Of a DNA stretch of 64,000 bases, positions 38,761 through 55,964 are shown piece after piece. A program made the translations under genes and the position numbers. Location: assembly GCA_029212615.1 (NCBI GenBank), contig JARGPJ010000008.1, positions 1 through 64,000 of the forward strand. Direction: 5' to 3'. Source of the stretch: Verrucomicrobiales bacterium. Its GTDB lineage: Bacteria > Verrucomicrobiota > Verrucomicrobiia > Verrucomicrobiales > DEV007. A model generated the notes under the pieces. The model saw only the letters and a list, made by a program, of their open reading frames with translations, did no database searches and was not told where the DNA came from. How positions within the stretch are numbered: position 1 is the stretch's first letter; each line of letters starts with the position of its first letter.

Positions 38761-39459
38761 TTAAAGTCCTTTCCGGGCGGCGTACCCGCCCGGGCTCAAC
38801 AGTTTCTTTACGTCGTCAACGCTCATGCCGGCGTTCGCCTTGTAGCCAGAGCTCTGCCGGACGCCGTCAGGTATGGGCGCGTTCGCGATGCCTTCGCTAC
38901 CGCGGGCGTCCGAAGAAGTGGAGAAACGCTTGTCTACACCGGGGGCATTTCCGGTATCAAAAGAGGCGAGTTGATTGGAGTTCTTCGTTTTTGCCTTTTG
39001 AAAGAGTTTTCCGGCCTGACGATCACTCGAGGTTCTGGAATTTCCTTCGCGGGCTGCGGAACCGCTCTCGCGAGCCGCATCCGTACCGGCAAATTCCTGG
39101 CGTTTGATATATTCCGGTGTGCGGAACTTTTTTGTCCGCGCAACGTCGTTCTTAAATTTGGCTTCCTTCTTGCCGAATTTTCCATCGAGCCCCTTGGCCT
39201 TATCCCCGGCAAAGAGGTTGGGCTTGTCGGCAACGATGGAGCCGTCTTCGCCGATGGAGTAACCCTTCTCGGCGAACTTTGACCGAATCTCTCCCGAATC
39301 ATTTCCTCCCTGACCACCCCACATGCCCTCGTCGAACTTGATGGTTGATTTCCGGGTCGTTGTTGTTGTCGTTGTGCACTGGCAAAAGAAAGCCATCACG
39401 CCGAAGGCGGAAAGCGCTCTTGTTGCGACAAAGGCAACACAATGGCGGGGGATTACCAT
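38761..39459 (-). CDS. small secreted or lipoprotein-like protein of unknown function
   Basis: The 232-residue protein has a hydrophobic N-terminus (about 8-26, ending AFFCQC) followed by a run of Thr (CTTTTTTTRKSTIKFDEG). It is then polar, Lys/Gly/Ser-rich and probably disordered, ending in MSVDDVKKLLSPGGYAARKG. The Cys residues at the end of the hydrophobic segment suggest lipidation, but the lipobox is poor. Its ATG overlaps the stop of the giant TPR gene by 7 bases (ATGGTAA), so it is translated from the same message. No family recognised. Confidence 0.6.
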   Translation of the reverse strand: MVIPRHCVAFVATRALSAFGVMAFFCQCTTTTTTTRKSTIKFDEGMWGGQGGNDSGEIRSKFAEKGYSIGEDGSIVADKPNLFAGDKAKGLDGKFGKKEAKFKNDVARTKKFRTPEYIKRQEFAGTDAARESGSAAREGNSRTSSDRQAGKLFQKAKTKNSNQLASFDTGNAPGVDKRFSTSSDARGSEGIANAPIPDGVRQSSGYKANAGMSVDDVKKLLSPGGYAARKGL

Positions 39460-42400
39460 GAGTCCCTATATTCAACCATTTCACGCCCTTCGGCAAGAGC
39501 GTTGCTCCAATCGTGGAGAAGGGCGCGGCGCCCGGAACTGAGGTCGACGTCGGAAAGACGGGTCTCCCATTCGTCGAGTTTTCCCCAATCATGGTAAAGT
39601 TGGACGAGGAGCCTGAGATCAACACGGATCGTTTTCTGAGCGACACGTTTCAAGATAGACTCTGCCTTCTCAAACTGAGACTGGTCGATGAGAAAGGACA
39701 CATAAGACTCAAGGAAGGCCTGATGATTCCAAAGGTAGGGGCCTGAAAAGTCATGATAGCGATCAAAGAGGCGCGCGGCGAGATCGTCTTCCCCGAGGTT
39801 GGCGAGGAGGGCCGGGAGGCGGTATCGGGTTGTTAAAGTGGGAAACCAGGAATCGAGTCCGGATTGGTGGAAGAGATCGGATCGAGCTTCTCTCATGAGG
39901 TTCTGATGGACCTCAAGGAGTCGCTCCCGATCTCCGATGCGGTGGAAAAACAAAATCTGTCGAACGGGTTGATGTTCGAGAAATGAGGTGCCGACCGCTC
40001 CTGAGCTATCGACCCAGGCCTTCGCTGCTTCAATCCCGTGAGGGCCGAAGGCAGGGAGGGTTTCCAGAATCTTTTGTTGGGTGCTCCTCCCGGAATCGCC
40101 AAGAAGATTCAATGCTGTAGGGCCGAGCTCGTTCTTGAGTGCCGCGCTGAGAAGCGAGCTGAGCCACGCGGAATCTCCCCGGGCGGGACACTGGTCAATC
40201 AGGTCAGCTATTTCCGTCGCGTCCCCTGGAAGGTTGATCCCCCACTCTACGAGACGGGAGGCATTTGACGAGGGGATCCCATTGCTGGCGGTCAATTCGT
40301 CGAAGCGATAAACAAAGTCCTGGAAGTAGGCTTGCCACATTGTCGCTGATTGTTCGGGCCAGGCGTCATCCCCGCTCATGAGGTGAAGCGATTGCGCTGA
40401 GATCGCGGCACGTTGAGCGGGATTTGATGTCCGTCGTCGCAGGATTCTGAGAATGCTCAGCGCTTCCTCCCGGCCTCCGGATTCATGGGCGAAATCGACC
40501 AGTTCACGGGTCACCGATGGCGGATGATTCTCAAGACTCTCGTGAGCAAGTTCGACCACTGCCGCGGGAGAAGGCCATCCCAGTTTTTTATGCAAGGCGG
40601 CTGCGCCGACCAGCGCTCTGCGTTCAAGGCCGGGTTCAGTTCCGTCACGCTGAATCGCTCCGAGCCAGTCGAGGGCTTCCTCATAGCGTTCTTTCGATTC
40701 GAGAACAGAAGCGCCGAGGAGGAGCTGCGGAGTGGTGATTGTCATTTCATTCCTGAAGAAAGTAAGAAGGCGGAGAAGTGCATCATCTCTTCCCATGAGC
40801 CGATAAGCTTCGACCAGGGCGGCCTGATAAGGGAGGTGGGCACGGCTTGAAATGGGCGGAGATCCGGAGGCCCCGGAGGGAGAGCGTCCCAACGAAATGA
40901 GGCGGTCGAGATCGCGACTCATGAAAAGAAAGAGAGCATGTTGCTCAGCGAGATAATCGGAGGTGAGTCCGGGAGGTGCCGGGTATTCGCGTGCATTAAT
41001 CCGATTGATAAGTTGCAGTGCCGGCTCCGGCTCCAGTGCCTCCGCGCAGGATTCAAACACTCCTTGAAGCGGTGTGTAGTCACGTGGCAATCGCATCGCC
41101 TCGAAGAGATAGACGGGAATGGCCTCGCGGTTAAAGCCGCGATTTCCGAGGGCGCGAGCCAGGTCGAGAGCACTGTCCGGTTCGAGAAAAAGGCGGTGCA
41201 TTTCATCGACGAGAGCCTGACGTTCGCTGAAGGACATGCTCTCAAAGCCAAGGAGGCGGCGGTCGATTTCAAATCGTTCAAATTCGGCGAGGACAGTTTC
41301 ATCAGTCGGAACGAAGCGGTACTCCCCTTTAAAGGCAGAGAGGATCTTCCCGCGATTCTCAGGGGTAATGAAAAGTCGGCTCGAGTAGAAATCCAAAACC
41401 TGCCTCATGCGCTGCCAGCTTTGGCTTTGGTCGTGACGTACCTGGTCGGGATCAGGATGCGAAGGCCGCATCACGTCAAGCTGTCGCTGAGTGAGGCGTG
41501 CGATTGCTTCAGTCGCCGCCAATGTGTCGCGTCCCGCGAGTGAAATCAGAGTTTCTCTCTCAAGGTGATCTGACGGAGTGGTGAGGCCGCCAAGGTGAGG
41601 ATGAGCTTTGAGCGAGAAGAGAAGTTCCCGGCGGCTTTTGTCGTTGTCGAGAAGGGAGAGCTTCTCCGTCAAGGCAATGAGAAAATGCCCTGAAGCGCCG
41701 GCCCCGGAACGGGCCCGGAGATGCGTAAGTGACTCGTCAAGGAGGCGGACCCGCTCTTCCGGGTGTCCGGACCATCCCGCCACTTGAGAGAGCGCAAACA
41801 GGAAGCTGCCATGTTCACTCAGGGGCTCGACTGCGAATCGCTTTCCAACTTGATAGGCGCCCTCGTAGTCGCCCGAGGCGCGCAGTTCCGAGAAGAGGTG
41901 GGTGGCAACTGCGCCCGGAACCTCGAACCGGGTGAGCGTGTCATAGAGAAAGTCAGGACTGCGCAGCGGGTCGAGAGGCAGGTCCTTGAGCAGGACCAGG
42001 GATGCCATCGTGAGGTAGAGGGAGCGAGGTGATTTCCCTTCCTTCTGATGTGATGTCCATTCGAGAAGATCACTGGTATTCCCGGTGAGAAGGAGGCAGT
42101 AGGCCCGGACGAAGTGTTCGAGATGGGTGGCGGGCTCCGGAAGCTGTTTCAGAAGCAGACTGAAGGCCTGGCGGTCACCGGCATGGCGAGCGGCCCAGAG
42201 CCTCTCATGCAGCGGGAGGGAGGGGTCAAGTCGGGAGCGAAGCCAGGATCCGCTATTGCCGGAACGGAGCGCAAGGGAAGCGGCTTCTTCGAGGGCACGC
42301 AGGCGGATGAGATAGGGTTCGTCCGGGGTGTAGGCGAACTCCGGATGAGGATCTTGAAGCGCTTCGGCAATATCATCCTGCAAGTCGCCCCCCATGAAAG

Positions 42401-45400
42401 GATACGACTCGATGGAAAAAATAAAGGGGTCCAACTCTGTCCCCGGGGCGCCGCGATCCTCAGCCGGCAGTGTTGCCACGCGAATCAGAGGAAGGGCGCG
42501 GGCAGCAAAGGCTTCCGGATAAACCTCGTCGGCGGTGTCTTCGAGGAGTTGCTCTAGGAGGGGCGCCGCTTCCGCCTCTTTTTCGTGTTCGATGAGAAGC
42601 AGTCCAAGCCGGAGCCTTGACTGGAGATCCCATCCCCGGAGTTCGACGATCTTCGACAGGGTGCGTTCCGCGGCTTCCCCTTGACCGTCCGCGAGATAGT
42701 GTTCAGTGAGTTCCTTCAGGAACTCAGGGTCACGACCAAAGCGGCCTTCAAGACGACGTCGAAGCCGGTTTGCCTCGTCGACCCGGAGATCCTTTTCGAG
42801 CATTTCGATGAGGGTAAGCCAGTTCTCAAGCTGTTCTCCTTCCTCCCGTGCGAGGAGCTGACGGCGATAATAGATTGCAGATTTGAGGTCCCCCATCTGG
42901 TCCGCAAGCTGACCCAACTCGTTGAGGAGTCTTTCATCCTGGCCGGACATGTAGTACGCCTTTTTCATGGCCTCAAATGATGCCGCGTCATTTCCGGCCG
43001 CCTTGTTTACTCTTGCCAGTGCTTCAGGATAAAAACGGTCGAATGGATTCTGCTGGGCCAGGTCTCGGTATTTTCCGAGCAGCCATTCGAGGAGAAAATG
43101 GGAGCGTGCCGTGCTGAGTTGAGTGTCGAGTTGCTTTCGGCGTTGAATCAGATCGGTCTCCCCCTGTATCAATTCAAGTTGGGCTTCGAGCGCCCCCTCC
43201 GGGTTTCCTGTTTCAATCAGAGTGGTCGTGAGTTGTTTCACGATTCGGCGTTTTTCGAACACGTTTGCCTCGCGGTAGGCTCTTTCCCAGACCTCAAGCT
43301 GCCGACTGGTGTTGCCCTGCCGTTGGTAGACCTTTGCGAGGGTGTTGAGCGTATTCAGTGAGGCATCCGGTTTTGCGGCAAGTCGTTTCAGTTCGCGGAT
43401 AGCTTCGTCCTCAAAGCCAAGCTCAAAACGCATTTCAGCGCGCCTTTGGAGGTATTCGTCGGCATTTTCAGCATCGATCTCCGAGAGAGCGGTGAGGTGC
43501 TGAATCATCAGAGTAGGGCGCTCATTCTGCACCGCGAGTTCCAGCAGCATTTCCTCCACTTCAAGCACGGGACTGCCTGCTTCCTCAGTTGCTTTGGTGA
43601 GTTGTTCGTAACACTCCTGATTGTCCTGCAGCTTGAGTGCCCACCAGGCCGCCCGGTAACGGTTGGCGGTGGAGGGTGTTTTCGACGCGGCCGACTTGAT
43701 CTTGTCGTAGTAGGCGACGAGCTCGGCTGGCGGAGGGTCGTCTCCGCTGCGGCCGATTTGCGAGGCTGCGGCGGCAATGCGTCGATATTGGGCAAGGCTT
43801 TGAATCCGTCCGTTCTGAAGGAGGCTGTCGTCTTCGACTGTATCTGCTTCGGTTGAAAAGTGTCCGCGAAGCAGGCTGAAAAGCCGTTGATCAAGGTCAG
43901 CTCTCCTTTCGACTGTTTCCTCATTTTCCCGGAGGGATTCAAGGAGCTTGATCGCTTTTTTGATCTCTCCTGATTCAACGAGAAGGTCGGCTTGAGCGGT
44001 GAGGTATTCCTGTTTTTCGGGAGCGAGGGATATCGCTTCCCTGATAGCGTCGAGCGCCCGTTGTTTTTCGTCGAGTTCCCGGAGAATGATCGAAACCCGG
44101 TAGAGGCGACGTGAGCGTTCCATCGTGCTTTCCCCGGCAGCTTCGATGAATGCGTTGAGTGTCTCGATCGCCTGTCCGGTCCGGCCCCGTTCGTTGAGGA
44201 ACCGGGCGAGGTCGGCGGGAGCGTTCCCTTCATTTGCGCCGGCAATGGCATCGTCGTAGGAATCGCGAAGGAGGCGCTCGACCAATCCATCGAGGTAGTT
44301 TTCGCGGGCAAAGGCGAGAATTTCAGCGACCTCATCTTTATTCAGAGGGGTGGACTCGAGATGCTTTTCGACGATTTCTCTCGCGGTGAGACGATCATCA
44401 TCGTTCAGGGCGATGCGTGCTCGTAGTAGAATGAGATGAAGCGGGACCTCTGCCTGTTCAGCCAGTGCCTTTTCCAAGGTTGCTGCCGCCGCTTCATAAC
44501 GATCATTTCGCATTTGAATGCCGGTGAGGCGCAGGCGGTAGTCGAGGTTTTCGGGGAGGAGTTCTACGAGATTCGCTGTGACTCGTTCTTCTTCCTCAGG
44601 CGATGCGGTAAGGCGGTAAAATTCTGCGAGGTCGAAGAGAGCTTGCTCGGTTGGGTTGACTTCGCTGATTCGCGCGGTGAGTTCTTCCTCGAGATCGGGG
44701 AGACGTTCGAATCGTTCGTGGATTTGGACCCATTGAGAGAAGAGCGCGGTGTAATCGTGATTCTTAAAATGAAGGAGAGCGAGGCCGCGTTTTGCCGAGA
44801 TCACTGCTCCTTCGAAGTCGCTGATGAATTCGTAGAGCGTCGTCAACTCGATGAGTGCATCGAGTTGCTCCCGGGGGCTGCCTGAGGAGGTGAGGGATTG
44901 AAGGAGTTCCAGGGCAGCATCCGTTTCGCCCGCTTCGAGAAGTTGACTCACGATCTGATTCCGGAGAGAAGTGTCTTCGGGGTAGGCTGTGAGTAATTCA
45001 GTCCAAATCGCGAGTGCTTCAGGATTTCGGGCTCGTTCGCGGAGAAGCGCTGCCATGCGGAGCCGGAAGGCCACTCCGTTTTCGTCAAGCGCCGGCACTT
45101 CCTCAGCAAGCCGGTGGTAAAACGAAAGCGCCTTGCTGGTTCTCCCCTGGAGATCGGCAATTTCGGCAAGGGCGCGAAGGGCATGCGGGTTCGCCGGATC
45201 GAGATCGAGAACCTTCCCGTAGGATTCCCGTGCTTCGTCCACTTGTTCATTCTTCCGGAGAAGATGAGCGTGAATGAGCGTTGGTATCGCCTTCTCTGAA
45301 GTGGCTGCGTTTCCTATATAGCTGAGTAAGAGTGGCGTTTGCTCCTTCTTTTCGTAGAGATTCCAAAGGAGATTCAGCACTTTGCCGTAGGCGGGATCCC

Positions 45401-45563
45401 CCTGAAGCAACTTCAGGTAGTGGTTTGCGAGACGGGTGTCCGTGTCGGTCCAGGGTATCGTGCTCGCTTCCTCTGAGCTATTCTGGGAAAAAACAGGGGA
45501 AAGCCCGATCGCCAAAGACAGCGCGGTGACCCGAAGTAGTTGACTGGAAATGAGAGCCTTCAA
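39453..45563 (-). CDS. 2036-residue secreted TPR-repeat protein
   Basis: This is the longest gene in the window. A signal peptide (1-26, ending SPVFS) precedes an almost continuous array of tetratricopeptide-type helix pairs, for example the segment around DARESYGKVLDLDPANPHALRAL and later TALNLLGDSG and FEKAESILKRV. No enzymatic domain or membrane anchor is evident after the signal. A periplasmic or surface scaffold role is likely, as TPR arrays bind other proteins. It shares a 7-base overlap with the small lipoprotein-like gene and diverges from phzF (78-bp gap). Confidence 0.85.
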   Translation of the reverse strand: MKALISSQLLRVTALSLAIGLSPVFSQNSSEEASTIPWTDTDTRLANHYLKLLQGDPAYGKVLNLLWNLYEKKEQTPLLLSYIGNAATSEKAIPTLIHAHLLRKNEQVDEARESYGKVLDLDPANPHALRALAEIADLQGRTSKALSFYHRLAEEVPALDENGVAFRLRMAALLRERARNPEALAIWTELLTAYPEDTSLRNQIVSQLLEAGETDAALELLQSLTSSGSPREQLDALIELTTLYEFISDFEGAVISAKRGLALLHFKNHDYTALFSQWVQIHERFERLPDLEEELTARISEVNPTEQALFDLAEFYRLTASPEEEERVTANLVELLPENLDYRLRLTGIQMRNDRYEAAAATLEKALAEQAEVPLHLILLRARIALNDDDRLTAREIVEKHLESTPLNKDEVAEILAFARENYLDGLVERLLRDSYDDAIAGANEGNAPADLARFLNERGRTGQAIETLNAFIEAAGESTMERSRRLYRVSIILRELDEKQRALDAIREAISLAPEKQEYLTAQADLLVESGEIKKAIKLLESLRENEETVERRADLDQRLFSLLRGHFSTEADTVEDDSLLQNGRIQSLAQYRRIAAAASQIGRSGDDPPPAELVAYYDKIKSAASKTPSTANRYRAAWWALKLQDNQECYEQLTKATEEAGSPVLEVEEMLLELAVQNERPTLMIQHLTALSEIDAENADEYLQRRAEMRFELGFEDEAIRELKRLAAKPDASLNTLNTLAKVYQRQGNTSRQLEVWERAYREANVFEKRRIVKQLTTTLIETGNPEGALEAQLELIQGETDLIQRRKQLDTQLSTARSHFLLEWLLGKYRDLAQQNPFDRFYPEALARVNKAAGNDAASFEAMKKAYYMSGQDERLLNELGQLADQMGDLKSAIYYRRQLLAREEGEQLENWLTLIEMLEKDLRVDEANRLRRRLEGRFGRDPEFLKELTEHYLADGQGEAAERTLSKIVELRGWDLQSRLRLGLLLIEHEKEAEAAPLLEQLLEDTADEVYPEAFAARALPLIRVATLPAEDRGAPGTELDPFIFSIESYPFMGGDLQDDIAEALQDPHPEFAYTPDEPYLIRLRALEEAASLALRSGNSGSWLRSRLDPSLPLHERLWAARHAGDRQAFSLLLKQLPEPATHLEHFVRAYCLLLTGNTSDLLEWTSHQKEGKSPRSLYLTMASLVLLKDLPLDPLRSPDFLYDTLTRFEVPGAVATHLFSELRASGDYEGAYQVGKRFAVEPLSEHGSFLFALSQVAGWSGHPEERVRLLDESLTHLRARSGAGASGHFLIALTEKLSLLDNDKSRRELLFSLKAHPHLGGLTTPSDHLERETLISLAGRDTLAATEAIARLTQRQLDVMRPSHPDPDQVRHDQSQSWQRMRQVLDFYSSRLFITPENRGKILSAFKGEYRFVPTDETVLAEFERFEIDRRLLGFESMSFSERQALVDEMHRLFLEPDSALDLARALGNRGFNREAIPVYLFEAMRLPRDYTPLQGVFESCAEALEPEPALQLINRINAREYPAPPGLTSDYLAEQHALFLFMSRDLDRLISLGRSPSGASGSPPISSRAHLPYQAALVEAYRLMGRDDALLRLLTFFRNEMTITTPQLLLGASVLESKERYEEALDWLGAIQRDGTEPGLERRALVGAAALHKKLGWPSPAAVVELAHESLENHPPSVTRELVDFAHESGGREEALSILRILRRRTSNPAQRAAISAQSLHLMSGDDAWPEQSATMWQAYFQDFVYRFDELTASNGIPSSNASRLVEWGINLPGDATEIADLIDQCPARGDSAWLSSLLSAALKNELGPTALNLLGDSGRSTQQKILETLPAFGPHGIEAAKAWVDSSGAVGTSFLEHQPVRQILFFHRIGDRERLLEVHQNLMREARSDLFHQSGLDSWFPTLTTRYRLPALLANLGEDDLAARLFDRYHDFSGPYLWNHQAFLESYVSFLIDQSQFEKAESILKRVAQKTIRVDLRLLVQLYHDWGKLDEWETRLSDVDLSSGRRALLHDWSNALAEGREMVEYRDSW

Positions 45564-51098: not shown

Positions 51099-51295
51099 GT
51101 GCGTTTTCATCCTTCCTCATTCCTGAGTTTTACTCTTCTTTTTCCTCACCGATGTCGGGGAAAAGAGAAGGGTCAGGAAATGGAAAATGGTGATATTCCG
51201 GAGGTTTCCTGTGTCACCGTTATTCTAACCGATTGACAGCACAGGGGATTGCCTTTTAAATACCGCCCTGCCTCATTTCGAGGCGTAAAAGTGAC

Positions 51296-51366
51296 GGCGA
51301 GGTAGCCAAGTGGTAAGGCCGGGCTCTGCAAAAGCTCTATCGCGGGTTCGATTCCCGCCCTCGCCT
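51296..51366 (+). tRNA. tRNA-Cys (anticodon GCA)
   Basis: The acceptor stem GGCGAGG (51296-51302) pairs with CCTCGCC (51359-51365), discriminator T. The anticodon stem GGGCT/AGCTC holds loop CTGCAAA with anticodon GCA, reading Cys codons. The T arm GCGGG-TTCGATT-CCCGC is intact. CCA is not encoded. A run of seven T follows immediately and should stop transcription. It is the only tRNA gene seen in the window, 197 bases after cysN. Confidence 0.95.
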
Positions 51367-51443
51367 TTTTTCCGATCACCGATGACTTGAAGCTCAGGTT
51401 CCGGGATCCCGGCCGGAATCGAGGGTATCATTGCGGAAGTGAC

Positions 51444-52235
51444 TCAATCATTTTCAAGTTTAAGTGCCTTCCAGTAGAGTGGCATTGCAAGGGTTTCAAT
51501 CTCTTCGCGAACATCTCCGGGTAGACTTGCGGTGCCACTGCCGGGACCTGCCTTCAGTGATGCGTAGTTTCCCTTAACTTCTTTAATGAATGCCGGGGTA
51601 AGAATTTCCAGGATCTGGCGGCAATCGGATTCAGGAATCTCTTCTCCAAGGTAGCCTGCGATGGTTGAAAGTTTTGCTGATGGAGCAAGGAAGAAAGATT
51701 CGTAGCTTAAAAATTTCCAGGACGGTTTGTTTACAGATATGTTTGCGGCTCGATTGAGTGCTTCCCGGGTATGAGCTATCCACCAGGGGAGATTGCCGCG
51801 AGCGTAGTCGGTCAGCGTGATTTTGTCGGGGTCGATATACCCGTGGAATGAGGCGTAATTAAAATACGAGACCATGACGTCGTCCGGTGAACGGAAAAGG
51901 AACAGATGAGGTCCCCGCGCTTCGGGGTGAAGTCCGTCCCAGCTATGGGTAAGGAGGAAACCGGGATTAACGGATTGTGCATAAGGGTTTTTCCAATCAG
52001 GTCCGGCCTCATTGAGATTACGGTTTTTCCTCTTACCCACAATGCATTCTCTAACGAGCGGCTCACTGATTTTAGACCCGTTTCTGGTTATCTGAATTGC
52101 GATTCGCAACGCTCTGGCGATCCATGTTCGGCCTGATCTCGGAAAGCTGATGAAATACCGGTCGGTTGGACTCAATTGACTACTGACTCCCTCTGCGAGG
52201 GGGATAAAATCATAAATACTTTGCTCTCTTTCCAT
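51444..52235 (-). CDS. PAPS-dependent sulfotransferase
   Basis: The 263-residue protein (start at ATG 52235) has the 5'-phosphosulfate loop YFISFPRSGRTWI (27-39) and a 3'-phosphate-binding region LFLFRSPDDVMVSYFNYASF. These fit the Sulfotransfer_1 family, which moves sulfate from PAPS to hydroxyls of glycans, lipids or small molecules. An in-frame start further upstream (52439) would overlap the divergent gene and is rejected. Neighbouring cysHCDN supply PAPS, and the divergent fusion gene suggests a glycan acceptor (inference). Confidence 0.88.
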   Translation of the reverse strand: MEREQSIYDFIPLAEGVSSQLSPTDRYFISFPRSGRTWIARALRIAIQITRNGSKISEPLVRECIVGKRKNRNLNEAGPDWKNPYAQSVNPGFLLTHSWDGLHPEARGPHLFLFRSPDDVMVSYFNYASFHGYIDPDKITLTDYARGNLPWWIAHTREALNRAANISVNKPSWKFLSYESFFLAPSAKLSTIAGYLGEEIPESDCRQILEILTPAFIKEVKGNYASLKAGPGSGTASLPGDVREEIETLAMPLYWKALKLEND

Positions 52236-52299
52236 ATTGGATTTGTATCGACGCCCTCGGGATGATGGATCGAGGGCGTGTCTTCTTCCAATAATAGTG

Positions 52300-54807
52300 A
52301 TGAGTAATCGTAAGTCGATAAATGTTCCTGCCATGCGTATTGCGATGGTTGGGTTTGGGGCGCGGGCTGAAGAGCATCTTGATGCCCTGAAGAAAAGCAG
52401 AGAGCCTTTTGAAATCCGTGTCGTTTGTGACTCGGACAAAGCTGCTCTTGAGCGGGCTGAGAAACGAATGGGTCAGGTCAGGGTCGGTGCCGATCTTGGG
52501 AGTTTGCTGGAGGAGTGCCCGTGCGATCTTGTTGTGATTTGTCTTCCCCCGGCGGTCGACTTGCGTCCGACGGTTAAAGCTGTTGCCGCCGCGGCCGGCG
52601 TGAAAGCGGTCCTGATTGAAAAACCTGTGGCGAATACGACCCGCGAGGCAACGGAGGTAATGAGTGGCCTACCTGTACCTGCATTTCTTTTCCATCAAAT
52701 GAGATATCTACCCTGGGCAGTGAATGCAAGGGAGTGGTACCGACAGCGAAAAGCGACAGGCGCGTCACTCGTCAGCATTGAGGGCTACTGCTATGGTAAG
52801 TTCCTCGATCAGGGGCTGCATCTTTTCGATCTGGCGTGCTGGATCACCGGTTCGATTCCCGCCCGGATACACAAGGCTGTTGCGGAGCACGACCCTGCCC
52901 GCATCAGTGCCCGTTCCCCGCTTCCTTTTGAATGGAGGAGGGATTATTCGCATGCCGGTCCCACTGTTTTCGAAGTTGAGTCAGGATGGGACGATGAAGC
53001 GAAATTCCTTCTCAAAACAGGGCCTTCAGCCGCTGAAGGCTGGTTGGGTAAAGGGCTTCGCCTTTCCTGCGGCGACGACGATTGGTTTGAGCTGGGGACG
53101 ACGGGGGCCTCGGCGGGGAGTCCGGACGGTCAATCCTCGGAATCGGGCACGATTGAGGACTACAAAAAGGCAACGACTTCCGTTTATGAGGCGTTTTCCC
53201 ATTGGTTGACAGGGGAGGGTCCCGAGCCGGATCTCCCTGATTTGGAGGAGCATAGTGAACACTTGCGTTGGTATGAGGCGGTAATCAACTGTGAAGGGAT
53301 TGAGAGACTGCCTTCTCCATCCTGGTTGAAAAGCGAACGTTCAAGAACCCCGATTCTTGTCGTGATTCCCTTGAGCGATCATCGTGGGGTTGCTGAGGAT
53401 TGCGTCCGCAGTTGGACTCAGGAACAGAAGGGATGCGAAGAAGAGGATTATCAACTCGTGGTTATCAGCAATCAGGAAACAAAGGGAATCGGAGAAAAGG
53501 TTCGCCCTCTTCTCCGTGAAAACGATCTCCTCATAGAGACGGAGCTTCCTATGGCGGAGCTGGGACAGGGTGATATGGAGGAGTATGTCATTGGGATTGG
53601 CGCCAGTGATTCTGAATGGATTTTCCTGACAGAGCCGCATTGCGAAGTTCCTTCGGACATTGTCATCGAATTGAAGCGGTTTTTTGAAACCAGCGAGGCG
53701 GCGGGGTTCTGCACGGGGGCAGAGGATGTGGTTGATACTTCCTGGGGGATGATGGAGGCGCTCTACTCCGCGGAAGGGGTTGAAGAATGGAAGAAGGAGG
53801 GGAATTGGGGGAAAATGATCATGCGTGGATTCGGCGTCCGTCGAACTGCTTATGAGAGGGTGGGAGGTTTCAGGTTGGAGTATGGTCGCTTCAGCGAATG
53901 GCTTCTGGGAGCAGATCTACACCGCGAGGGATATTATCTGGACTACGCTCCAAAGGTTCGCGTGCTCCATCACTACACGCTGGAGAAACCCTATCTCGAC
54001 GAAGCCATTGAAGAATTCGTTATCGGACAGGCAAAGTATGCCAGCTCTGCACCGGAGGGCGAACGCCTTCCCTATTTTCCGGATCCTCTCGCAGAGGTTC
54101 CGTTGCCGCCGATGTTGAACTCGCTTTTTGACAAGGCTGCTCAGATTGCGAAGAAAAAAAACATCAAATCGATCCGGAGAAGATTCCGGTGGATTTCGCC
54201 GGCGAAGAAGAAGCAATTAGCCAGAGATTGGAACAGTCTATTGGTTCACCTGCTGGTCGGGGGGCTTCCGAAGAAGGCTTTTCCGCACTTCAAGAATTAC
54301 TATCAGGCACAGATTGAGGCTTCGTTACTGAAGCATTTGCCTAAGTTTTCGAATCGGGATGCCGCCTCACTGCAACCCGGACAAGGTTGGGATGCAGGAA
54401 GTGACGAGTTTAAGAGCCTCGTAAAAGTTCACCCGTGTGAAAATTGGAAAGAGACGAGTTTCCACTGGGCGGAGCCGGTCTTTGCGATTCCGATCGATGT
54501 CACAGCGGTTTCCGGTCACAGCGTGATTTTTGAGCTCATGCTTCCGGAAGGGCTGGGAAGCGTAGATGAGAAGGTGATTTTCCTGATTTCGAGTTGGGAG
54601 GAAAATGAACCGGTATCACCAACGCTTGTTCGCGGGGACGGAACGGTGATGCTGCGATTTGAGGTTCTTCTGCCGAATCGCGAGGCTATGCCGACCTCCT
54701 CCGAAAATGGCTGGCTGTTGGTCGGTTCGCCGGCACTCGAAACGGGTTCAGAAGAGAAGCGGCAGCTGGGTCTTCCGGTCGCTGCGCTCTCTATCTCACG
54801 CGGTTAG
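52300..54807 (+). CDS. fusion of Gfo/Idh/MocA oxidoreductase and GT2-like glycosyltransferase
   Basis: The product has about 835 residues (ATG 52300; ATG 52333 also possible). Residues ~12-345 form an NAD-dependent Gfo/Idh/MocA-type domain: MRIAMVGFGARAEEHLDAL, IEKPVA (the conserved EKP, 107-109) and DQGLHLFDLACW. Residues ~350-585 resemble a GT-A glycosyltransferase: TPILVVIPLSDHRGVAEDCV, SDSEWIFLTEPHCEVPSD (DxD-like region) and GVRRTAYERVGGFRLEYG. A basic helical segment and a beta-rich tail (~710-835) complete it. It could oxidise or epimerise a sugar and transfer one in the same polypeptide. It diverges from the sulfotransferase gene, 64 bases away. Confidence 0.72.
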   Translation: MSNRKSINVPAMRIAMVGFGARAEEHLDALKKSREPFEIRVVCDSDKAALERAEKRMGQVRVGADLGSLLEECPCDLVVICLPPAVDLRPTVKAVAAAAGVKAVLIEKPVANTTREATEVMSGLPVPAFLFHQMRYLPWAVNAREWYRQRKATGASLVSIEGYCYGKFLDQGLHLFDLACWITGSIPARIHKAVAEHDPARISARSPLPFEWRRDYSHAGPTVFEVESGWDDEAKFLLKTGPSAAEGWLGKGLRLSCGDDDWFELGTTGASAGSPDGQSSESGTIEDYKKATTSVYEAFSHWLTGEGPEPDLPDLEEHSEHLRWYEAVINCEGIERLPSPSWLKSERSRTPILVVIPLSDHRGVAEDCVRSWTQEQKGCEEEDYQLVVISNQETKGIGEKVRPLLRENDLLIETELPMAELGQGDMEEYVIGIGASDSEWIFLTEPHCEVPSDIVIELKRFFETSEAAGFCTGAEDVVDTSWGMMEALYSAEGVEEWKKEGNWGKMIMRGFGVRRTAYERVGGFRLEYGRFSEWLLGADLHREGYYLDYAPKVRVLHHYTLEKPYLDEAIEEFVIGQAKYASSAPEGERLPYFPDPLAEVPLPPMLNSLFDKAAQIAKKKNIKSIRRRFRWISPAKKKQLARDWNSLLVHLLVGGLPKKAFPHFKNYYQAQIEASLLKHLPKFSNRDAASLQPGQGWDAGSDEFKSLVKVHPCENWKETSFHWAEPVFAIPIDVTAVSGHSVIFELMLPEGLGSVDEKVIFLISSWEENEPVSPTLVRGDGTVMLRFEVLLPNREAMPTSSENGWLLVGSPALETGSEEKRQLGLPVAALSISRG

Positions 54808-54887
54808 AGGTCACCCCTCTTCAGAAACCGCAACAGCGGCGTTCAACAACAAGCAGCAAACGCCTGGTAGAATAAAATTGATCAATC

Positions 54888-55826
54888 TTATTCCTCTTTC
54901 GGTAAATGCCGGGTCAGGAATTCAACCGTCCGCTTAATGATCTCATCTCGTGTCGGTTCAATATCCGTTTTCCCGTCGGCCTTTCTCCAGTTGTGTCCGG
55001 CATTCCTGACAATTAGCACATCGACCGGAGCCGAGATCTCGTCGGCTCGTTCTTTCATGTAATGCGCATGATGAACCGGAATCGTCGTATCTCCATCCCC
55101 CTGAATCATTAGAAGCGGTGGGCTGCCTGCCTTCAAATAGGTGATCGGACTCATCTCGCGATAGAGCGCCAATTTGTTTTCCGGGTCGTGACCCGGCTTC
55201 AAAATACGGGGCCCGAATCGATCCCGAAAACCTTCCCTGCCATTATGATTGAAGAGCTCCGTCTTCTCAAAATCACAGGGACCATACCAGGATACTCCGG
55301 CAATCATTTTGTAGTGTTCGTTCGCCAGTGACTCGTCGCCCGGCAATGAATCCGGTGAACTCAACAACAACATTTGCGCGATCTGGCCGCCCGCAGAATC
55401 CCCGAACGTGAAAACCCGATTCGGATCAATTCTGTATTTCCCGTGATTCTTTACGAGGAATCGAATCGCATCTTTGCAGTCGGTCACGCAGTCTTTGATC
55501 GTGATCTGCCCGCCTTGTTTGTAGAGCCTGTATTCGACAGAAGCTACGCAAAATCCATTCTTCGTCAGCCCTTCGACAACCTTTTGCATGTTGCCGCGCT
55601 TCGCCGCGTCCTTGTTACCCGCTGCCCAACCACCTCCGTGCGTGTAGACGACGAGTGGCAATGATGCCTTCGAGGTGCCAGCTGGATAGTACAAATCCAG
55701 CAAAAGGGACCGTTTGGCCGAGACCGCTTTGTATTCAACGCTGCTCTGGCTTTCCTGCTCTTGCGAATGGGCCGTTTCACCAGGTGTGAAGGCGGCGAAC
55801 ATCGCGATTAGTGCGATTCTATTCAT
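54888..55826 (-). CDS. secreted alpha/beta hydrolase (esterase/lipase, BD-FAE-like)
   Basis: The 312-residue protein has a signal peptide (1-21, ending TAHS), oxyanion-hole motif [10 protein letters not shown], nucleophile elbow [10 protein letters not shown], catalytic Asp in [14 protein letters not shown] and His in NAGHNWRKA. This is the carboxylesterase group related to feruloyl and acetyl-xylan esterases. The substrate may be an acylated polysaccharide (inference from secretion). Its ATG overlaps the stop of a tiny upstream frame (55823-55921) in an ATGA junction. Confidence 0.9.
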
Positions 55827-55921
55827 TCAATTATGGTTACCATGACGACCCCTCCTCCGACTCCGCAACGTCCAGCCATGATGCCGGCAAAGATACCAAC
55901 AGCGGGGAGAGTGAGTTTCAT
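55823..55921 (-). pseudogene. 32-codon frame resembling the N-terminus of a TauE/SafE permease
   Basis: An ATG at 55921 opens a short frame whose product ends IFAGIMAGRCGVGGGVVMV followed by TIIE and stop. The pattern GxxAGxxxxxxGVGGGxxMVP-like is the first-helix hallmark of TauE/SafE sulfite/sulfonate exporters. The stop overlaps the hydrolase start by ATGA. It is either a remnant of a lost permease gene or a leader-type short frame. The rest of the permease is missing. Confidence 0.4.
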
Positions 55922-55928
55922 GGTTGCT

Positions 55929-55964
55929 TCAAGAGGGTTGGATTGTCTACCTAAGAGGGTTGAA
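55929..55964. repeat. two copies of the 22-bp-spaced repeat at the 3' end of holA
   Basis: AAGAGGGTTG occurs at 55931-55940 and 55953-55962, exactly 22 bases apart. On the minus strand the unit reads AACCCTCTTAGG then AACCCTCTTGAAG, closely resembling the znuA-znuC repeats except that G is replaced by C at the positions flanking AACCCT. The second copy supplies the last codons of holA (IQPS and stop). Confidence 0.65.

Follow-up and report, generated by a model that had tools for sequence, protein, structure and literature searches.

A rare but recurrent gene of Verrucomicrobiales joins a Gfo/Idh/MocA oxidoreductase to a putative glycosyltransferase of an E-x-H family

Among the closest described relatives of the protein considered here, the WlbA/WbpB-type enzymes are UDP-GlcNAcA 3-dehydrogenases, and GenD2 is likewise a sugar oxidoreductase of the Gfo/Idh/MocA type. 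Both WlbA and SqgA act at C3, and Gal80p, which has no catalytic activity, serves as a sensor or scaffold. Among glycosyltransferases (GTs), variants of the DxD metal motif are known; the GalNAc-transferases of family GT27 have a D-x-H...H metal set and carry a lectin domain. DgpA acts at C3 of glycosides, and DgpA-type relatives act on intact glycosides, as described in passages of one report (PMC11239390). In passages found in open-licence papers, Gfo/Idh/MocA genes are separate genes, and no fusion of such a gene to a GT gene is named. Both parts of the protein described below are of known kinds; no description of their combination was found in the open-licence literature, in a search for which the wording of some queries was poor.

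The window, that is, the whole analysed stretch of 64,000 nucleotides, belongs to a Verrucomicrobiales bacterium (GCA_029212615.1, contig JARGPJ010000008.1). In this window, one intact reading frame with 0 internal stops begins with an ATG at 52300 and ends with the stop codon at 54805-54807. The original prediction that a single polypeptide comprises a Gfo/Idh/MocA oxidoreductase and a glycosyltransferase was borne out by this 835-aa frame and by homologues that share its architecture. The features of the gene are as follows.

52300..54807, + strand: fusion protein gene (835 aa, stop included in the coordinates; full-length orthologues known)
52330..53337, + strand: Gfo/Idh/MocA oxidoreductase half, residues ~11-346, consisting of a Rossmann domain (12-121) and an alpha/beta domain (Pfam, PDB profile matches, AlphaFold, Foldseek)
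52618..52626, + strand: E107-K108-P109, the family lysine motif, kept in 5/5 fusions
52807..52830, + strand: D170-Q-G-L-H174-L-F-D177, the active-site His motif, its H kept in 5/5 fusions
53320..53346, + strand: short inter-domain linker, residues ~341-349 (low pLDDT)
53347..54099, + strand: predicted GT-A-like glycosyltransferase domain, residues ~350-600 (family alignment, PDB profile, Pfam of relatives)
53632..53640, + strand: E445-P446-H447, in the DxD position, with E and H invariant in 16/16 family members
53968..53970, + strand: H557, candidate third metal ligand, invariant in 16/16 members
54367..54804, + strand: C-terminal beta domain, residues ~690-835 (family alignment, pLDDT; also on 11 Gfo-less members)

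Proteins with the same domain order were found, and the fusion is a real protein that recurs full length in four other genomes. These are Akkermansiaceae UBA6138 (L047; 57% identity to the window protein), Verrucomicrobiales NAT23 (L048, genome G025; 49%), uncultured Verrucomicrobiales SRR3933179 bin 11 (L049, genome G005; 48%) and G090, a genome from another family of the order, whose fusion has 884 aa and 27% identity.

According to its profile matches and predicted fold, the N-terminal half is a Gfo/Idh/MocA oxidoreductase. PF01408 (GFO_IDH_MocA) matched residues 12-121 with an E-value of 1.8e-13 and 51.7 bits against a Pfam cut-off of 24. The half carries G18-x-G20, E107-K108-P109 and D170-Q-G-x-H174-x-x-D177, in agreement with the Rossmann loop and EKP originally read from this region. 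The GxG, the EKP and the His are all kept in 5/5 fusions, including that of G090, whose Gfo half has 21-35% identity to the other four; at the position of D170, G090 has an Asn, and so does WlbA at the corresponding site. As for the C-terminal alpha/beta domain of the family, PF22725 (GFO_IDH_MocA_C3) scored below its cut-off of 27 bits in the window protein (17.8) and the UBA6138 fusion (20.1) and above it in the G090 fusion (32.4). This domain is nevertheless present in the predicted fold, which matches whole enzymes with a TM-score by target of ~0.7.

In the AlphaFold model, 26 of the 33 ten-residue blocks of residues 11-340 had a pLDDT of at least 80. A Foldseek search with this half retrieved whole Gfo/Idh/MocA enzymes (first match with E 2e-17 and TM-score by target 0.69); oxidoreductive sulfoquinovosidases, WlbA and GenD2 were among the top matches, and Gal80p was also among the matches. 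A PDB search with a profile built from the five Gfo halves gave the oxidoreductive sulfoquinovosidase 8qc2 as the best match (7.7e-17), and WlbA (3q2i) was matched at 5.1e-13. In the alignment with SqgA and WlbA, both the EKP lysine and the second-motif His have counterparts, although the second stretch aligns only weakly. Because it is mainly the Rossmann domain that aligns with the solved relatives, the nearest PDB match says little about the substrate and was rejected as evidence for it.

The GT half (residues 350-835, ~485 aa) consists of a GT2-like part followed by the beta domain. Pfam matched 0 families at E <= 0.01 in residues 350-835 of the window protein. An alignment of the GT family was considered as a whole, with 16 members: the five fusions and 11 proteins without a Gfo half, one of which, from G085, has an extra C-terminal domain. 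PF00535 (Glycos_transf_2) matched 9 of these 16 at E <= 0.01, the best at 1.8e-10. The 16-member profile reached GT structures in the PDB at 7.9e-6 to 4.8e-5, among them TarS (5tz8, 1.6e-5) and a Leptospira GT (6p61, 1.3e-5); RmlT (8bz8) was matched at 0.0033, and the match to GalNAc-T10 was weak (0.0022).

The AlphaFold model covering the complete fusion protein was built from four sequences and had a mean pLDDT of 61.7. The first ~70 residues of the GT half reached a pLDDT of ~50-84, and the blocks of the GT core (residues 461-600) had values of 22-41; a second model was similar, both being under 50 with only four sequences. A fold search with the weak GT model gave GH146 arabinofuranosidases first and RmlT and TarS at an rmsd of ~20, and it has no evidential value. 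Since the GT core was not confidently folded, the assignment of the GT half rests on sequence. Two confident domains had been named as the support required: the Gfo half folds confidently, whereas the core of the GT half does not. The statement that the middle of the protein resembles a GT-A glycosyltransferase draws its support from the family profile, which reaches GT2 structures; the window protein has no Pfam match of its own here, and the core fold was not confirmed.

The RVGGF motif noticed earlier is present at residues 520-524, with G522 kept in 15 of the 16 aligned rows, G523 in 16 and F524 in 14. The DxD-like region that had been proposed was not recovered: the canonical DxD metal motif is absent from the GT half, and the DxD position of TarS aligns with E-x-H (E445, H447). 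The alignment columns invariant in 16/16 rows are E445, H447, W503, G523, H557, E714 and W723. Because variants of DxD are known, E-x-H bars the label of a canonical GT2 enzyme, not that of a GT. The GT half is most likely a GT2-like glycosyltransferase of an E-x-H family, as judged from the aligned members.

Two relatives without a Gfo half (488 and 482 aa) are encoded in the window's own genome, where they adjoin on contig 13, and match the catalytic part. Two relatives in G025 align over window residues 350-833 and 354-833. It was also observed that a tandem pair of E-x-H GT genes is common to the window genome and G025 (L026:9893-12804 and L028:7009-9926), with tree support of 100/100 for each pair.

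The C-terminal beta-rich domain of the original prediction was upheld as a predicted structure, the last ~145 residues of the protein having AlphaFold pLDDT blocks of 61-85. By alignment it occurs in all 16 members, which match over it by construction. Among 379 ORFs searched, a PhyH dioxygenase encoded divergently to the NAT23 fusion proved to end in a related beta domain (2.6e-6). PhyH dioxygenase genes lie beside or near three GT-family members (L048:8769-10046, L031:8593-9645 and L089:9949-10791).

For the protein as a whole, the evidence leans towards a bifunctional enzyme that would alter a sugar by redox chemistry and then transfer it in the building of a glycan. The observed basis of this mechanism is the conserved co-linear fusion, the conserved motifs and the predicted fold of the Gfo half. 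The Gfo half would act on a hydroxyl, oxidising or reducing it with NAD(H), and the sugar concerned would be either a nucleotide sugar or part of a chain. The redox site may be C3; this is a guess made because DgpA, WlbA and SqgA act there, and their ranking among the matches is no proof. The GT half would take a sugar from a nucleotide donor and attach it to a surface polysaccharide or to a glycoprotein, with a metal that may be held by E445, H447 and H557. The beta domain may bind glycan or mediate the formation of oligomers, and tethering could keep the redox-modified sugar beside the transferase. The cofactor NAD(H), the C3 site, both donor and acceptor, the metal triad and the channelling are inferences, as are the make-then-transfer order and the sulfated surface glycan of the original prediction.

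Instead of preparing the donor, the Gfo half may act on the acceptor, oxidising or epimerising a sugar of the chain or removing one in the manner of SqgA, with the GT half adding sugars. Its closest solved relatives, both by profile and by fold, are NAD-dependent glycosidases (8qc2, 8qc3), and the DgpA-type relatives act on intact glycosides in the passages cited above (PMC11239390). However, WlbA, which was solved with UDP-GlcNAcA, and GenD2 of the gentamicin pathway score nearly as well, and an alignment confined mainly to the Rossmann domain has little bearing on the substrate. Action on the acceptor is considered rather unlikely.

The surroundings of the gene bear on a further proposal. 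In the window, cysH-, cysC-, cysD- and cysN-type genes (assigned by Pfam) are followed by a sulfotransferase gene (-), the fusion gene (+), an esterase gene (-) and holA (-, PF06144).

51444..52235, - strand: sulfotransferase gene, divergent, 64 bp from the fusion gene (PF00685, E 1e-7; association not found elsewhere)

The fusion gene had been described as divergent to a sulfotransferase gene and downstream of PAPS synthesis. The hypothesis built on this, in which the fusion, the divergent sulfotransferase and the cys genes would jointly serve the pathway of a sulfated surface glycan, proved weak and is regarded as doubtful. The search for sulfotransferase neighbours covered the two families PF00685 and PF13469. 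Neither family was represented next to the fusion in G005, G025 or G090, and no sulfotransferase was found among the 10 of 18 neighbouring ORFs of the UBA6138 fusion that were scanned; within this scope, conserved linkage of fusion and sulfotransferase is absent at the four other fusion loci. Matches to PF00685/PF13469 exist in all four searchable fusion genomes (G000, G005, G025 and G090), but only those at 64 bp in the window and at ~73 kb in G025 share a contig with the fusion. The window sulfotransferase itself had no match at E <= 1e-10 in 35 other genomes, G025 not being among them.

In four other members of the genus, cysN and holA could be read on one contig (L082-L085). In 4/4 they flank other genes, and none of the ORFs between them matched the window's sulfotransferase, fusion or esterase in blastp at 1e-5; this interval (51099-55950 in the window) is variable in the genus. 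The cys operon is regularly present in the genus genomes and is followed by a variable interval, so its nearness to the fusion gene says little. The PAPS operon was rejected as evidence of sulfation, since it is present where the interval contains neither sulfotransferase nor fusion.

Other observations favour sulfation in addition to the distance of 64 bp. The GT-family member of G085 (L062:8183-11155, 990 aa) comprises an E-x-H GT and a beta domain followed by a sulfotransferase-like domain, the matches to which are below cut-off (PF06990 5.4e-4, PF03567 6.4e-3). In G005, the relative L030 follows a PF00685 gene, with one GT2 gene in between, and directly precedes a GT4-type gene. Moreover, passages of PMC7356697 report sulfated polymers of a glycosaminoglycan-like kind for a strain of Kiritimatiellae, a group within the phylum. 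A link to sulfation may exist for the GT family, but it is not ascribed to the fusion itself.

The gene contexts of the other four fusions do not match that of the window. Among the five contexts, only that of NAT23 resembles a sugar cluster as far as neighbours were scanned, the Pfam scan covering a minority of those in G005 and G090. The NAT23 fusion lies near genes for UDP-GlcNAc 2-epimerase (PF02350, 3.9e-90), Polysacc_synt_2, an epimerase-family protein and a GT2 enzyme, and these neighbours therefore favour polysaccharide synthesis. The G090 fusion is located between two housekeeping genes, a recA-like gene (identified by eye) on one side and a seryl-tRNA synthetase gene (Pfam) on the other, the latter separated from the fusion by one ORF; this context is uninformative. 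Elsewhere in the window, a 2036-aa ORF with tetratricopeptide repeats was observed at 39453-45563 (-).

Another reading is that the Gfo half has no catalysis of its own and serves as a sensor or scaffold by which the GT is positioned or regulated. Among the four close fusions, the Gfo halves are 41-56% identical against 68-74% for the GT domains; the Gfo half thus diverges faster, so a weaker constraint may apply to it, and Gal80p is among its fold matches. Nevertheless, the GxG, EKP and His are retained in 5/5 fusions despite an identity of only 21-35% in the Gfo half of G090, and a dead Gfo half is judged quite improbable.

Other fusions of Gfo domains were found in the order. When 386 genomes of the order were searched with the Gfo profile, the best non-GT matches, all at E <= 1e-22, came from four frames 788-806 aa long in which a Gfo domain is joined to a DegT/DnrJ/EryC1 aminotransferase. 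Each frame comes from a different genome, all within a single family of the order, and Pfam confirmed the architecture in the three that were scanned (G211, G126 and G198).

L073:3993-6326: Gfo + DegT fusion frame, Pfam-confirmed
L074:1288-3621, - strand: Gfo + DegT fusion frame, profile match
L075:6912-9257, - strand: Gfo + DegT fusion frame, Pfam-confirmed
L076:2908-5277: Gfo + DegT fusion frame, Pfam-confirmed

In G211 (L073), the Gfo + DegT gene is followed by a gene of the aminoglycoside 3-N-acetyltransferase family. This order would make sense for oxidation, transamination and N-acylation at C3, and therefore the neighbour hints at a route through a 3-keto sugar. The DegT-fused Gfo domains form a tree group of their own and were not shown to be the nearest kin of the GT-fused ones.

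The GT fusion is rare. It was found in 4/386 genomes of the order sample and in 3/33 genomes of the genus, the own genome included and several of the 33 being incomplete. In the class sample (315 genomes), it was found in the own genome only, together with one Gfo-less relative in G901. The phylum sample (387 genomes, searched with the GT profile) gave the order members already seen and six distant partial matches, and in no case did the matching frame also encode a Gfo domain. A single-protein scan of genome contigs with the window fusion gave no relatives. A phage origin was considered and rejected, there being no PHROG match at E <= 0.1 and no relative among viral contigs. In G621, another member of the class and the source of one of the six distant matches, a canonical GT2 gene with a DSD motif adjoins a separate Gfo/Idh/MocA gene on one strand (L053:119-2193).

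The fusion spans at least two families of Verrucomicrobiales. In the trees, the five fusion GT domains lie on one side of a branch (100/98), and the five fusion Gfo halves are grouped with 100/100 against the DegT group and with 97/97 for the branch as drawn under midpoint rooting; G090 is outermost in both trees. A further tree, into which an unrelated 501-aa ORF (L089_1) had been admitted, left the fusion group unchanged. The simplest account of these trees would be one old fusion followed by loss or occasional transfer. That two genes were joined by an assembly or prediction error, with separate genes in the homologues, as had been named among the possible outcomes, can be practically dismissed, because the fusion recurs in four other genomes and is therefore neither chance nor assembly error, and each half of the five fusions forms one group.

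The reading of the protein as a bifunctional redox and transfer enzyme may be taken further. An ancestral fusion in Verrucomicrobiales might be a single-chain make-and-transfer enzyme, in which an NAD-dependent 3-oxidoreductase would hand a 3-keto or otherwise C3-altered sugar to an undescribed GT of the E-x-H metal type. The resulting surface glycan would contain a sugar beyond the reach of free enzymes, given the instability expected of its 3-keto intermediate. In this specific form the proposal is speculative and unlikely to hold in full. If the redox half does make such an unstable sugar, the protein would represent a single-chain solution to handling it. Fusions reveal which enzymes share one pathway. 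The present one ties an orphan E-x-H GT family, whose member in the window has no Pfam GT match, to a sugar oxidoreductase, which provides a handle on the role of the family. As it stands, the fusion is a recurrent but rare putative enzyme.

Compared with known systems, the Gfo half resembles WlbA/WbpB-type enzymes and GenD2 in the Rossmann fold, the EKP lysine, the His of the second motif and the fold of the whole half; these enzymes differ in being separate single-domain proteins of ~350 aa with 17-19% identity among the fold matches listed. The SqgA oxidoreductive sulfoquinovosidases (8qc2, 8qc3) gave the best matches to the Gfo half by profile (7.7e-17) and by fold (2e-17), but they are unfused glycosidases. 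The wall teichoic acid glycosyltransferases TarS and RmlT are alike in their GT2-type N-terminal part, with a profile match over ~115-125 positions; they have no oxidoreductase, and TarS has DxD where the fusion has E-x-H. In the GT27 polypeptide GalNAc-transferases, D-x-H...H resembles the E-x-H...H of the fusion, whose metal role is predicted, and the profile match to GalNAc-T10 is weak (0.0022); these enzymes are eukaryotic, carry a lectin domain and are otherwise far. The ~485-aa E-x-H GTs of the same order, two of them in the own genome, are alike over the whole GT half including the beta domain and differ in having no Gfo half. Finally, the Gfo + DegT fusions have an aminotransferase as the partner, and their Gfo domains stand in a separate group, but like the GT fusion they consist of a Gfo domain and another sugar enzyme. 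These fusions show that, within this order, a Gfo domain has become linked to another sugar enzyme on more than one occasion.
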